Positions 2,656 through 13,910 of a stretch of 23,222 nucleotides of DNA are shown piece by piece. The position numbers were made by a program, and so were the translations under genes. The stretch comes from a virus. Under the pieces are notes generated by a model. It made no database searches, was not told where the DNA came from, and worked only from the letters and a program-made list of their open reading frames with translations. The stretch is from positions 1 to 23,222 of the IMG/VR virus record IMGVR_UViG_3300025736_000211, one strand, 5' to 3'. Position 1 is the first letter of the stretch. Each line of letters starts with the position of its first letter.

Positions 2656-4620
2656 TTACCAACCGCGTGTCTGTGCAAAAATGAAATGAAACGCTTCTTT
2701 AGCTTTCGGGTATTTATGCTTAATCTGCATCGCCATCTTGCGAAGATCGTTACGGTTATAATCAGAAATCTGATCTGCTACCAATAACTGAATAACGAAC
2801 GGGCTTGGAATATTACTATATTCTTTGGGTATTTCGGCTGAAGCCATCTTCGCTTGCTCCATCATCATAGCCTGACCCTGACTCCTAAACTCCGCTCTCA
2901 TGTCGTCCATCGCTTGTATTACAAGTGCATGCAGAGTAGGATTGCTATGTTTGATCTTAATCAGCTCACCCCTTCTTTGAGTTTCCGGAGTCTGTAATAA
3001 TAGTTGCTTAGCCGTATCTTGCGCTTGCTGCGCCACGTCCCCAGGAGTAGATCCTACATCTCCACCAGGCCCACCAGGCATACCGCCTCCACCTTGTTGC
3101 ATCTGTCCGGCCTGTGCCCTCTCCATTGCTTCCTGCTGAAGCTTCTGAATCTCTTCTTGCTCCTCAACCACCCTTCGCTGTTCCGTAAGATAGTCTATGC
3201 CCAACGGTCTGTAAGCAGTGGCCTTACTAATATCCATACCGGCAGCAGCCTGCAATGCTAATGCTTTACGCTCAATATCATCAGCTAATGTAACAGACCG
3301 TAAGCTACCTTTAATATCCCCCCATAGAAAATGCCGGCTTAGCATTTTAAGTAGCCACGCTATATACCCGTTCAATCCCTCCACGAGAGCCCCCCAGGTC
3401 TTCTCAAATAGTCGTAGCGCTACAGGAAACGCTTGAATGCTTAACGATCCCTTGTACAGCTCAGCAGGCAGCCCTATCGCGTTCAACAGTTCATCTAGCG
3501 CCACAGCGATACTCTCCTTCGGGGATAATGCTTGTGCTTCACCCCCGAGCATTTCGTAACCAATTTCAAACGGTGACACTTGTATATCTGTAATATTCTT
3601 GCGTTTCTTTACTACCATATCCTGCATTTTGCTTATGAAACCGCCCATGTTCATTGTACTTAAAGGATCATTACCACCCGGGCCCGCTTGTGCCTTAGGA
3701 AACAATATACGGAATGGCACGATGAAGTCTAAAGCTATAGCTTCATCGTAACGCCGCAGCATTTGTATATAATAAGCTAGTTTGAAGTTCGGCAATATAG
3801 ACGGTATCGACCAGCCTTTAATCGGTAAGCCTGCTAATGTTGAGTCTTTTAAATGATATATAGCGTCATCACGAAGCTGAAATACTGAGTCTGCATCAGC
3901 TTTAGCCATATTGCAACAGGTTTTAACCATCGACCACGGTGTTTGATTAAGATAAAATGAATTACCGTCTCTGATTTTCTGCGCAAAGTTAGGATCGATT
4001 TCTAAGTAATATTCAATTTTACCGCTGATAGGATGAATGCGTAACTTTATCTGCTTCGGATTCCACCTGATAACCGCTATACGATCCTTATCCGGAGAAC
4101 GCCTATCTTCACGCTTGAATATAACCTTATTCTTACAGCCTATACATACGCCTTCGAATGTGTTAGTTTTGGGTTTAAACTTAGTTTGTATAGTCTCAAC
4201 ATGATATGACATACCGCACTCGGGGCAAATCAAAAACCGATCAAAGGGGAAAAATGTGCTTAGAAAAACATTACCGTATACCATAAAATCATCGCCGATA
4301 TCAGCAAGCAGCGGCATGATATGCAATATGTCGTTTAGAAAATCGTTGTATAACTCTCGTTCTTTATCCGATTCACCTTCGAGCACTAGTTCCGTAAGAA
4401 AATACCTGACAACACGCCGCGAAGCTGTGCGATATGTTCCCATACTAAGATACATATATTCGCAAAGTTCGAATATCGTAGGCAAATCGCTAGGCATATA
4501 TTCCGAAGCAATATCACAAAACGGGTTGGGAAATTTACCAGCACCGGCTTGCATTATGCCGCTACCACCGGAACCTTCACCAGATCCAAAAGGATAAACA
4601 CTTAAATTTTGTGTGTTCAT
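2656..4620 (-). CDS. Portal-like protein with internal zinc ribbon
   Basis: 654 aa. Length, the long amphipathic middle and C-terminal helices, the Gly-rich, low-complexity N-terminus and the Gln/Gly-rich stretch near 512-545 fit a phage portal protein, the dodecameric ring through which DNA is packaged and ejected. I recognise the overall pattern rather than a single diagnostic motif. Residues 132-162 hold CPEC...CIGC (Cys132, 135, 159, 162), a zinc ribbon inserted in the N-terminal third, which is unusual. The start overlaps the stop of the small gene upstream as TAATG, with AAGGA in front. It is the largest gene in the window. No terminase or major capsid gene is visible to confirm the order. 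Confidence 0.7.
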   Translation of the reverse strand: MNTQNLSVYPFGSGEGSGGSGIMQAGAGKFPNPFCDIASEYMPSDLPTIFELCEYMYLSMGTYRTASRRVVRYFLTELVLEGESDKERELYNDFLNDILHIMPLLADIGDDFMVYGNVFLSTFFPFDRFLICPECGMSYHVETIQTKFKPKTNTFEGVCIGCKNKVIFKREDRRSPDKDRIAVIRWNPKQIKLRIHPISGKIEYYLEIDPNFAQKIRDGNSFYLNQTPWSMVKTCCNMAKADADSVFQLRDDAIYHLKDSTLAGLPIKGWSIPSILPNFKLAYYIQMLRRYDEAIALDFIVPFRILFPKAQAGPGGNDPLSTMNMGGFISKMQDMVVKKRKNITDIQVSPFEIGYEMLGGEAQALSPKESIAVALDELLNAIGLPAELYKGSLSIQAFPVALRLFEKTWGALVEGLNGYIAWLLKMLSRHFLWGDIKGSLRSVTLADDIERKALALQAAAGMDISKATAYRPLGIDYLTEQRRVVEEQEEIQKLQQEAMERAQAGQMQQGGGGMPGGPGGDVGSTPGDVAQQAQDTAKQLLLQTPETQRRGELIKIKHSNPTLHALVIQAMDDMRAEFRSQGQAMMMEQAKMASAEIPKEYSNIPSPFVIQLLVADQISDYNRNDLRKMAMQIKHKYPKAKEAFHFIFAQTRGW

Positions 4621-7119: not shown

Positions 7120-7157
7120 TATCTTATAACCGCTTTATAGCAATTATTAAAGCTTAT
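7120..7157. repeat. 38-bp direct repeat, copy A
   Basis: Identical over 38 bases to 7823-7860. The copy begins (minus strand) within the last codons of the Imm-5-like gene and runs into the gap downstream. It includes short self-complementary parts (GCTTTA/TAAAGC and TATAA/TTATA). The two copies flank the Imm-5-like gene like cassette ends. Confidence 0.9.
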
Positions 7158-7773
7158 TCTTGACTCCTAATAGTTTTAGCCCATACCGAATTATTTTCAA
7201 TGACATTTGCCTGTGGGCTGCCCTGTAAGTCATTATAACCGGCACACTAGCAGCCGCTATGACTGCGTTAGCACCCGCACTGGCAGCCACACTGGCAGTA
7301 GTGCCGTCAGCCATACTGGTCACAACACTGGCAGCACTGTAAGCCGCGCTGTCAACCGCCCTAACCGCGCTGTAGCACGTAGTGTCACCCGCACTGACCA
7401 TGTTGGCGGCCACACGATATGCCGCCCTAGCTGCGCTGTACGCTGTATTGACCGCATTTTTGTTTTTCGCGGTAGAAGCTTTGAGGTATGTCTCTACTGC
7501 CTCAATTGTCTGCCGTGGTCGGTTATCGTCGGGATATGTTGCTTCGTAGATACCCAATACTTGCCGTGCAGCGAAAATAGCATATTGCACATTCATTTTT
7601 TTAGTCGGAAACAAGCGACAAATCAACCAGCTTGTCCAATCCAATTCTGCCCGTTTGATCATTAACTTTAAAATCTTTTCAGTATTTCGTTCAGGTTGCG
7701 CCGCAAACTCTTTAACCGCAACGTTACATGCGCTAATTGACTTCAGATATTTTACCGATAGTGTTTTTCTCAT
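7147..7773 (-). CDS. Imm-5-like alanine-rich protein
   Basis: 208 aa. Residues 68-97 (AARQVLGIYEATYPDDNRPR, then an IEAVETYL helix) match my memory of the Imm-5-like (putative immunity) family, in which this motif precedes a long alanine-rich helical repeat. Here the Ala-rich part covers about 109-176 (AAYSAARAAYRVA...). The C-terminus MSLKIIRYGLKLLG is also typical. The family is common in phages and bacteria; its biochemical role is not established to my knowledge, and 'immunity' is only a family label. AAAGGA precedes the ATG. The gene is flanked by 38-bp direct repeats, and a decayed second copy of its 3' end lies at 8636-8690. Confidence 0.7.
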   Translation of the reverse strand: MRKTLSVKYLKSISACNVAVKEFAAQPERNTEKILKLMIKRAELDWTSWLICRLFPTKKMNVQYAIFAARQVLGIYEATYPDDNRPRQTIEAVETYLKASTAKNKNAVNTAYSAARAAYRVAANMVSAGDTTCYSAVRAVDSAAYSAASVVTSMADGTTASVAASAGANAVIAAASVPVIMTYRAAHRQMSLKIIRYGLKLLGVKNKL

Positions 7774-12182: not shown

Positions 12183-13910
12183 TTATTTTATCGTGTCAAA
12201 ATCTTTATGCTTTATTTTCGTAATAATTCGCTTACCGTTTCTAGCAAATAGCTCTGTTCGAGGACGTGCCACAATGCCTTCTGCAATAAAATCTCCCCAC
12301 TGTGACTTAAATCCTACCCTTGTCATTTCAACCATTTTCTCCAATGTTCCAAAACCAATTATGGGCGCAACTTCTATGCCAAACTTTAATGCAATATCTA
12401 TGACGTCTTTGCGTTGCAACCACCAATTACCGACCTTAACATCAAATAATAAGAAGCCCTTGTCCTGCCGATAACATCCACCCTTCTGGATACCTGTACC
12501 GTATCCTTCGCCATATAAGCAAACGGCTAGTGGTTTACCTTCTGGAGGAATAAAGGTTTCTTTAAATAAACCTAATTGAAGGTCAAATATATCGTGGAGT
12601 CTCTGAATTAAGTCCGGGTGGAGGTTCGCTTTGTCTGTCTTTCCTGCAAATTTTAATATACCGTCAAACTTAATACGGACATTTGTATTATGAACCAATA
12701 TACTATTAGTGAAATAATCAGAGTTGTCCTTAACCGATAAATCATATTGAAAGGTTTGTTGTCCTATCGCTCGTTTAGGCATCTTTTTTGAAATAGATAA
12801 TACTTCAGTATCTACAATATCTAAATATGTATCAAACGATTTATCCAAAATACAAAAATACTTTCTATATTTTTTAGGCAATTTATATTTCATACTATTA
12901 CAGATATAAGGGAAAATAATACTAAATAATTTTTCTGAACCATCGGCAGTCAAACACAAAGTATTGCCTTTATAATTAAATGTTTTACTATCTATATTAT
13001 ATTTTGTCTTAAACATATTTTGAAGTAATTTTACTTCATTATTATTAAAAGCATTAGTGGCAAATCTTACTCTTGCTCTTTGTCTATTATTAAAATCCGC
13101 TGAGCCATCATCCATATACCAAAAAGCAATCCCCATTGGTGATAATTCATTAGCCCACTCTTTTGAAACTTGTTTTTTATTATCTTCTTCACAATAGTTA
13201 ATTATTAAATTTGAAATAGCATTATTAACTATTGAATTACCTCGCCTATTTTTTTTACTTCCAGGAAAACCACCCCTACCTCCTTTATTTTCACTAAATA
13301 TCTTTCCTAAAAGCATTTTTTTATAGTCAAAATAACTACTTTGAGATATAGAATGAATAAAATTAAATCCTCTTGTGGTCTTTGATGGGCTATAAATTGA
13401 ACTATCACCAAGTAATGTTCCTAAAATTATTTGTCTAATTTCTTCTGGTAATTTTTCTGACAGATGACTAACTAATTGTCCTTTTACTAAATCTTTAGCT
13501 TGAATCCATTTATTGTCTGAAAAAAAGCTATGATTATCTGTGCATACAATATGTTTAGGTCTATTACCTTTATTTTTACTTTTTACCGAAATACATAAAA
13601 AATCTCGTTGTCTTTTTTCTTTATGATAATGTTCAATTTCTTTATACTCTACAACTTCTTTTTGTATATTATAAGATAACACTTTTACTGGTAATTTATT
13701 TTCAACTATTTTGCCTATCATTAACAAGCCTTTATCGGTATATATTTGATTCGTATAATGCAAACAACCGTCTACTTTTTCTGTAAAGCACCACTCGTTG
13801 TTGGCAAGATACTCAAATTCAGGGAGTGAAAATTCCCCCTCAAGCAAGGTTTTATAGTTGTTCTCTGGATCTCTTTTATATACTGTCTGAATTTTATGAT
13901 AAGTGTTCAT
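12183..13910 (-). CDS. RNA ligase precursor interrupted by an intein
   Basis: 575-aa precursor. The exteins (1-48 and 409-575) make a 215-aa ATP-dependent RNA ligase of the nucleotidyltransferase family. Motif I is EKVDG-TNVRI with Lys45 as the predicted AMP-accepting lysine. Motif III is around LYGEGYG, IIIa is GFLLFDVKV, IV is AEGIVARP, and V is ITKIKHKDF. It would seal nicked or cut RNA, as phage ligases do in repairing tRNA cleaved by host defences; the actual substrate is unknown. It is shorter than T4 Rnl2 (334 aa) and seems to lack a C-terminal domain. The intein sits directly after Gly48, so active enzyme requires protein splicing. The ribosome site is weak (AGAAGA). Confidence 0.88.
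   Translation of the reverse strand: MNTYHKIQTVYKRDPENNYKTLLEGEFSLPEFEYLANNEWCFTEKVDGCLHYTNQIYTDKGLLMIGKIVENKLPVKVLSYNIQKEVVEYKEIEHYHKEKRQRDFLCISVKSKNKGNRPKHIVCTDNHSFFSDNKWIQAKDLVKGQLVSHLSEKLPEEIRQIILGTLLGDSSIYSPSKTTRGFNFIHSISQSSYFDYKKMLLGKIFSENKGGRGGFPGSKKNRRGNSIVNNAISNLIINYCEEDNKKQVSKEWANELSPMGIAFWYMDDGSADFNNRQRARVRFATNAFNNNEVKLLQNMFKTKYNIDSKTFNYKGNTLCLTADGSEKLFSIIFPYICNSMKYKLPKKYRKYFCILDKSFDTYLDIVDTEVLSISKKMPKRAIGQQTFQYDLSVKDNSDYFTNSILVHNTNVRIKFDGILKFAGKTDKANLHPDLIQRLHDIFDLQLGLFKETFIPPEGKPLAVCLYGEGYGTGIQKGGCYRQDKGFLLFDVKVGNWWLQRKDVIDIALKFGIEVAPIIGFGTLEKMVEMTRVGFKSQWGDFIAEGIVARPRTELFARNGKRIITKIKHKDFDTIK
12687..13766 (-). other. Intein with LAGLIDADG homing endonuclease
   Basis: 360 residues (Cys49 to Asn408 of the precursor). 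It starts with Cys and ends ILVHN, followed by Thr409 as the +1 extein residue. The splicing blocks are visible: CLHYTNQIYT at the N-terminus, TDNH (124-127, block B), YDLSVKDNSDYF (block F) and the terminal His-Asn (block G). Two LAGLIDADG motifs (ILGTLLGDS at 162-170 and AFWYMDDGSA at 262-271) carry the acidic residues expected of an active nuclease. All key splicing residues are present, so it looks functional. Its DNA is visibly more AT-rich than the exteins, which fits recent arrival. Confidence 0.9.

Follow-up and report, generated by a model that had tools for sequence, protein, structure and literature searches.

Introduction

A survey of mycobacteriophage inteins published in mBio in 2016 places these elements beside invariant residues of active centres, with terminases, RecB-like proteins, RDF, methylases and a C1 "nucleotidyltransferase" as hosts, while the word ligase is absent from it (PMC5050341). 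The paper on the cluster J mycobacteriophages describes their RNA ligase and, separately, inteins of the terminase, and the passages found in it mention no ligase intein (PMC3706429). In the sequence records, the cluster J phages Dallas, Bobby, Phoebus, Beem, KashFlow and Hannaconda have motif I of an RNA ligase interrupted by a LAGLIDADG intein, here after the residues KLHG; the annotation calls these genes RNA ligase or HNH endonuclease and leaves the intein unnamed. Other ligases are interrupted as well: an RNA ligase of a Miltoncostaea oceani plasmid (WP_217924968) has an intein in motif I, after KSHG, the ATP-dependent DNA ligase of halobacteria harbors another (PMC4071816), a Pseudaeromonas phage KLEP7 protein (UNY40322) is annotated in GenBank as "intein-containing RNA ligase," and NCBIfam holds models for intein-containing RtcB ligases.

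Here we analyse the viral IMG/VR record IMGVR_UViG_3300025736_000211, positions 1 to 23,222 (the whole stretch of 23,222 nucleotides is called the window hereafter), in which an RNA ligase gene is interrupted at motif I by an intein. This intein is of a kind already known, and what is added is the recurrence of the motif I site across ligase families; in the literature searched, which took in few subscription papers, we found no earlier description of repeated intein insertion at motif I.

Compared with the window intein, those of the cluster J phages are about 25% identical, are followed by Ser at the +1 position and reside in another ligase family. Likewise, the Miltoncostaea intein is 25% identical and followed by Ser, in a DRB0094-type ligase on a bacterial plasmid. 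The KLEP7 protein, also a phage RNA ligase, has a LAGLIDADG intein related to that of the window at 28% identity, but there the insertion is at motif III (GEWAG/S, the slash marking the junction) and the intein belongs to a separate clade together with those of contigs L127, L129 and L132. The halobacterial host is also a covalent nucleotidyltransferase ligase, although an archaeal DNA ligase. The closest intein, 42% identical, is that of contig L125 (IMGVR_UViG_3300000304_000005), which shares both the insertion point (TEKIDG/C..VHN/C) and the architecture, whereas its host is a DRB0094-type ligase with an N-terminal OB domain, its +1 residue is Cys and its block-F His is present.

The interrupted ligase gene

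The gene and its parts are as follows.

12183-13910, minus strand: open reading frame of the RNA-ligase/intein precursor, 575 aa
13767-13910, minus strand: N-extein, residues 1-48, ending in motif I K45-V-D-G48, from the gapless alignment to intein-free ligases
12687-13766, minus strand: intein, residues 49-408 (360 aa, Cys1 to Asn360), from the Pfam Intein_splicing and LAGLIDADG_2 matches and the AlphaFold2 model
12183-12686, minus strand: C-extein, residues 409-575 (167 aa and stop), starting with Thr at +1 (T-N-V-R), from the Pfam RNA_ligase match and homologues that read TN[IV]R

When residues 49-408 are excised in silico, the remaining 215 aa can be aligned over their whole length with intein-free ligases, and at the joint EKVDG/TNVR no residue is lost or doubled. 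The original prediction had placed an intein at 12687-13766 directly after KVDG of motif I, and both parts stand: the open frame and the alignment confirm the coordinates to the base, and the joint is continuous in the intein-free homologues. All three Pfam matches to the precursor exceed the curated cut-offs (LAGLIDADG_2, 2.7e-25; RNA_ligase, 5.6e-11; Intein_splicing, 3.4e-9), and NCBIfam adds a match to an intein C-terminal region. Taken together, the Pfam, motif and junction matches can hardly be put down to chance. The G+C content of the intein (26.4%) lies below that of the exteins (37-39%) and of the window (39.6%), and the difference from the exteins fits the expectation for a mobile element of other origin.

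An intein-free homologue continuing KVDGTN had been set as the test on which the prediction could fall, and such homologues are plainly there: those in the phage records MW202524, MW202615, cr116_1 and MT835544 and in IMG/VR read EK[VI]DGTN[IV]R uninterrupted. By a strict pattern, EK[VI]DG[TM]N was found in 78 of 87 scanned loci, and the other nine are misses of the pattern, with unbroken tblastn matches. The search that had been proposed among homologous phage ligases thus yielded the intein-free alleles, but in IMG/VR no intein-bearing allele of the window's own ligase family came up with the junction patterns TEKVDGC and VHNTNIR, which returned unrelated matches and one ligase with a natural KVDGC and no intein. 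A single-sequence search of IMG/VR with the intein gave nothing close, the related inteins there being recovered by profile search, and no DNA-level relatives of the window were found among phage records.

Splicing and nuclease parts of the intein

The residues expected to act in splicing and DNA cleavage were located by aligning 20 related inteins; Cys1, T76, H79, D121, D219/D220, D342, H359 and N360 are among the invariant positions.

13764-13766, minus strand: block A, with Cys1 of the intein (precursor Cys49) as the first nucleophile in splicing, unchanged in the 20 aligned inteins
13530-13541, minus strand: block B, T-D-N-H (TxxH), intein T76 and H79, both invariant in the 20 inteins
12951-13436, minus strand: LAGLIDADG homing endonuclease domain, Pfam LAGLIDADG_2 at residues 159-320, with I-SceI as top PDB match by sequence and fold
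13404-13427, minus strand: LAGLIDADG motif 1, ILGTLLGD, catalytic Asp being intein D121, invariant in the 20 inteins and aligned with the GD motif of I-SceI
13104-13130, minus strand: LAGLIDADG motif 2, IAFWYMDDG, intein D219/D220, invariant in the 20 inteins and aligned with YWFMDDG of I-SceI
12687-12752, minus strand: blocks F and G, FQYDLSVKDNSDYFTNSILVHN, with Asp342, His359 and Asn360 kept and the block-F His replaced by Ser, from the intein alignment

The AlphaFold2 model of the intein, built with the 20-intein alignment as input, has a mean pLDDT of 90.6 and presents a Hint fold split by the endonuclease domain. In Foldseek searches with this model the nuclease part matches I-SceI, and the Hint part matches the Mtu RecA, DnaB and DnaE inteins. 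The homing endonuclease that had been proposed inside the intein is borne out as a two-motif LAGLIDADG domain (Pfam 2.7e-25) resembling I-SceI by both sequence and fold, and the insert as a whole is predicted to be a class 1, full-length LAGLIDADG intein.

The further claim that all key splicing and nuclease residues are present holds for C1, TxxH, Asp342, His359, Asn360 and the LAGLIDADG acids, but not for the block-F His, since block F reads DNSDYF in the window versus the usual DNHNYF. This His is absent from 8 of the 23 motif-I inteins described below (Ser in the window; Asn, Lys, Gly, Ser or Ala elsewhere), so that its loss is to be taken as variation and not as proof of inactivity. The intein of the window ends in His-Asn followed by Thr (VHN/T), and it is the only one of the 23 with Thr at +1, a position taken by Ser in 16 and by Cys in 6. 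Because of the Ser in block F and the Thr at +1, splicing could be slow or partial.

The ligase host

The spliced 215-aa sequence retains the nucleotidyltransferase motifs I, III, IIIa, IV and V. In motif I, K45, D47 and G48 are invariant both in the alignment of homologues (alignment A1) and in 32 viral homologues, and the remaining motifs lie in the C-extein.

12498-12512, minus strand: motif III, GEGYG, invariant in alignment A1
12438-12455, minus strand: motif IIIa, F.LFDV, invariant in alignment A1
12270-12281, minus strand: motif IV, EGIV, with E, G and V invariant in alignment A1
12210-12218, minus strand: motif V, K-I-K, invariant in alignment A1

For an intein-free homologue (L012), the structural model (pLDDT 89.6) has as its best PDB matches 2hvr and 1s68, the adenylyltransferase domain of T4 Rnl2. 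The window ligase consists of this adenylyltransferase domain alone, and since it is devoid of the Rnl2 C-terminal domain and scores far under the cut-off of the full-length Rnl2 equivalog TIGR02307 (31.8 bits against 197), we name it Rnl2-like and not Rnl2. Judging from its motifs and the fold of its homologue, it is a putative short, ATP-dependent, T4 Rnl2-like RNA ligase. An identity as DRB0094/Rnl5 was considered and rejected, as TIGR02306 gives 18.4 bits against a cut-off of 151 and the N-terminal OB domain is missing.

As for the surroundings of the gene, another mobile nuclease is encoded 1.2 kb upstream of it by a free-standing GIY-YIG homing endonuclease gene (15090-15434, minus strand; Pfam 2.5e-11), which is overlapped by a gene for a DHH-family phosphoesterase (15431-16291, minus strand; PHROG 4771, 1.3e-52). 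Elsewhere in the window, the product of 7147-7773 (minus strand) has a weak Imm5-like immunity protein match under the Pfam cut-off and matches PHROG 38757, of unknown function, at 4e-25, and a 654-aa protein (2656-4620, minus strand) has distant relatives of 28-29% identity in Vibrio phages D69, D148 and D181 and in Salmonella phage Arash, some of which are annotated as portal protein.

Repeated intein insertion at motif I

Protein searches with the precursor and with its intein led to the ligase inteins of cluster J, Miltoncostaea and KLEP7, and a profile scan of IMG/VR to the contigs listed below. Besides that of the window, 22 further inteins were found in ligase motif I, making 23 distinct cases; since ligase inteins served as seeds for the scans, these counts describe recurrence and not frequency relative to other sites. 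The insertion follows the same glycine of KxDG/KxHG in 21 of the 22 and is shifted by one residue in the last (L145, KMDGE/C). Their carriers are mycobacteriophages, a Miltoncostaea plasmid and 20 distinct IMG/VR contigs, and their hosts include Rnl2-like, DRB0094/Rnl5-like and T4 Rnl1-like RNA ligases as well as two DNA ligases. Among the IMG/VR contigs, the host matches Pfam RNA_ligase in twelve (L122, L123, L125, L126, L134, L137, L140, L145, L154, L160, L193 and L210), RNA_lig_T4_1 in four (L146, L189, L212 and L221) and DNA_ligase_A_M in two (L147 and L162), and in L186 and L206 the sole match is the PHA02142 OB domain, which precedes such ligases. With 23 motif-I cases, the GenBank annotation of KLEP7 and the NCBIfam models for RtcB, the view that an RNA-repair enzyme is a less usual intein host can no longer be upheld. 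A second recurrent site lies at motif III (GE[WY][AC]G/S.IQK), where the inteins of L127, L129, L132 and KLEP7 (L003) form a clade of their own.

Inteins of this kind also occur outside ligases. Related ones sit in a phage tail collar domain (L128:2836-4401, L150 and L219; GWLL/CDGxxxSR; Pfam Collar 3.5e-18), a structural host and not one of DNA or RNA metabolism. In L167/L215 (IMGVR_UViG_3300035034_002218), an intein follows GKIDG in an open frame of more than 2300 aa, near whose end a second Hint region may lie (CLAGDTEVETWDG). Although the junction reads KIDG/C..VHN/S, this frame encodes a giant, virion-like protein and no ligase, and the case was left out of the counts. On the Aeromonas jandaei plasmid CP053880 (L110:1949-3073), a RecA/UvsX-like gene contains the start of a related intein, which breaks off shortly before an IS4-family transposase gene.

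Possible movement between ligase families

In two intein trees, whose deep nodes are poorly supported, the window intein and that of L125 form a sister pair (UFboot 99 and 97). The closest intein therefore sits in motif I of another RNA-ligase family, and inteins seem to cross families. Similarly, the intein of L210, whose host combines RNA_ligase with the PHA02142 OB domain, is nested in the T4 Rnl1-like intein clade with a support of 100. The incongruence between intein and host family at L125 and L210 suggests movement between ligase families at motif I. Only 10 of 24 central bases of the flanking DNA are identical between the window and L125, which makes present-day cross-cutting unlikely and implies that the transfer was old or went through intermediates; a shared homing-site DNA was accordingly rejected, and no recent direct transfer is claimed.

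It might be argued that all motif-I inteins of ligases descend vertically from a single ancient invasion, with neither repeated invasion nor transfer across families, as they occupy the same position in families with a common nucleotidyltransferase fold and many of them are related. We consider this improbable, given that the intein of the short Rnl2-like ligase groups with that of the DRB0094-like one at 97-99, that the T4 Rnl1-like intein clade (support 100) takes in the intein of L210, and that empty sites prevail, the cluster J mycobacteriophages being polymorphic at the site, with six carrying the motif-I intein and Schatzie, Courthouse and many others having it empty. We lean instead, somewhat cautiously, toward motif I (KxDG/KxHG, then Ser, Thr or Cys) being an intein landing site across the whole covalent nucleotidyltransferase superfamily, with LAGLIDADG inteins moving among ATP DNA ligases and RNA ligases of the Rnl1-, Rnl2- and DRB0094-like types, because motif I alone stays recognisable in both DNA and protein across these ligases.

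Proposed splicing and homing, and alternative readings

We hold with high confidence that the gene encodes the precursor of an Rnl2-like ligase with a class 1 LAGLIDADG intein between Gly48 and Thr49, which would be spliced to the native KVDGTN and would spread by homing. Following the conserved chemistry, the precursor would fold, Cys1 would attack, the N-extein would be passed to Thr +1, and cyclisation of Asn360 would restore KVDGTN. The ligase would presumably be inactive until then, since the catalytic Lys lies four residues before the joint. The I-SceI-like nuclease would cut intein-free motif-I DNA, into which the insert would be copied by homing, and we propose that the intein persists because the stretch of the gene in which it is seated tolerates change least. 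The intein would be one of a set that repeatedly took motif I in RNA and DNA ligases of various families.

The replaced block-F His and the Thr at +1 could also be read as signs that the intein is dead for splicing and the ligase gene effectively a disrupted pseudogene. Such a fate appears very unlikely, as the 575-aa frame is open, C1, TxxH, the block-F Asp, His359 and Asn360 are retained along with all ligase motifs after splicing, and seven other motif-I inteins likewise lack the block-F His.

The same non-consensus residues bear on an extended form of an idea of the original prediction, which had named redox, temperature or zinc: splicing as a conditional switch that keeps the ligase off until redox state, temperature, metal or infection stress permits it, and so times RNA repair. 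The catalytic Lys45 region is split from Thr49-Asn50, so that precursor and product must differ in activity, and conditional splicing is documented for other inteins, such as that of M. smegmatis DnaB (PMC6195587). Yet no regulatory feature is conserved and no conserved cysteine is near the junction; a redox trap through the Cys at -8 (position 41) was rejected, as this residue varies among homologues. Moreover, the window has no tRNA gene, no kinase or phosphatase repair partner was recognised among its scanned ORFs, and intein-free homologues dominate, hence the family has no need of a switch. The proposal is unsupported and seems highly improbable to us, and nothing points to splicing under regulation.

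Implications

Taken by itself, the intein of the window is one more active-site intein, and the reportable part is the recurrent motif-I site, where inteins have occupied one catalytic lysine motif again and again, in four ligase families or more, with an intein tree that does not track the host families. The collection makes it testable whether active-site inteins are due to the need of the homing nuclease for conserved DNA or to use of the delay by the host. It also supplies natural precursors in which adenylylation could serve as the readout of splicing and which differ, all at one site, in the +1 residue (Thr, Ser or Cys) and in whether the block-F His is kept.
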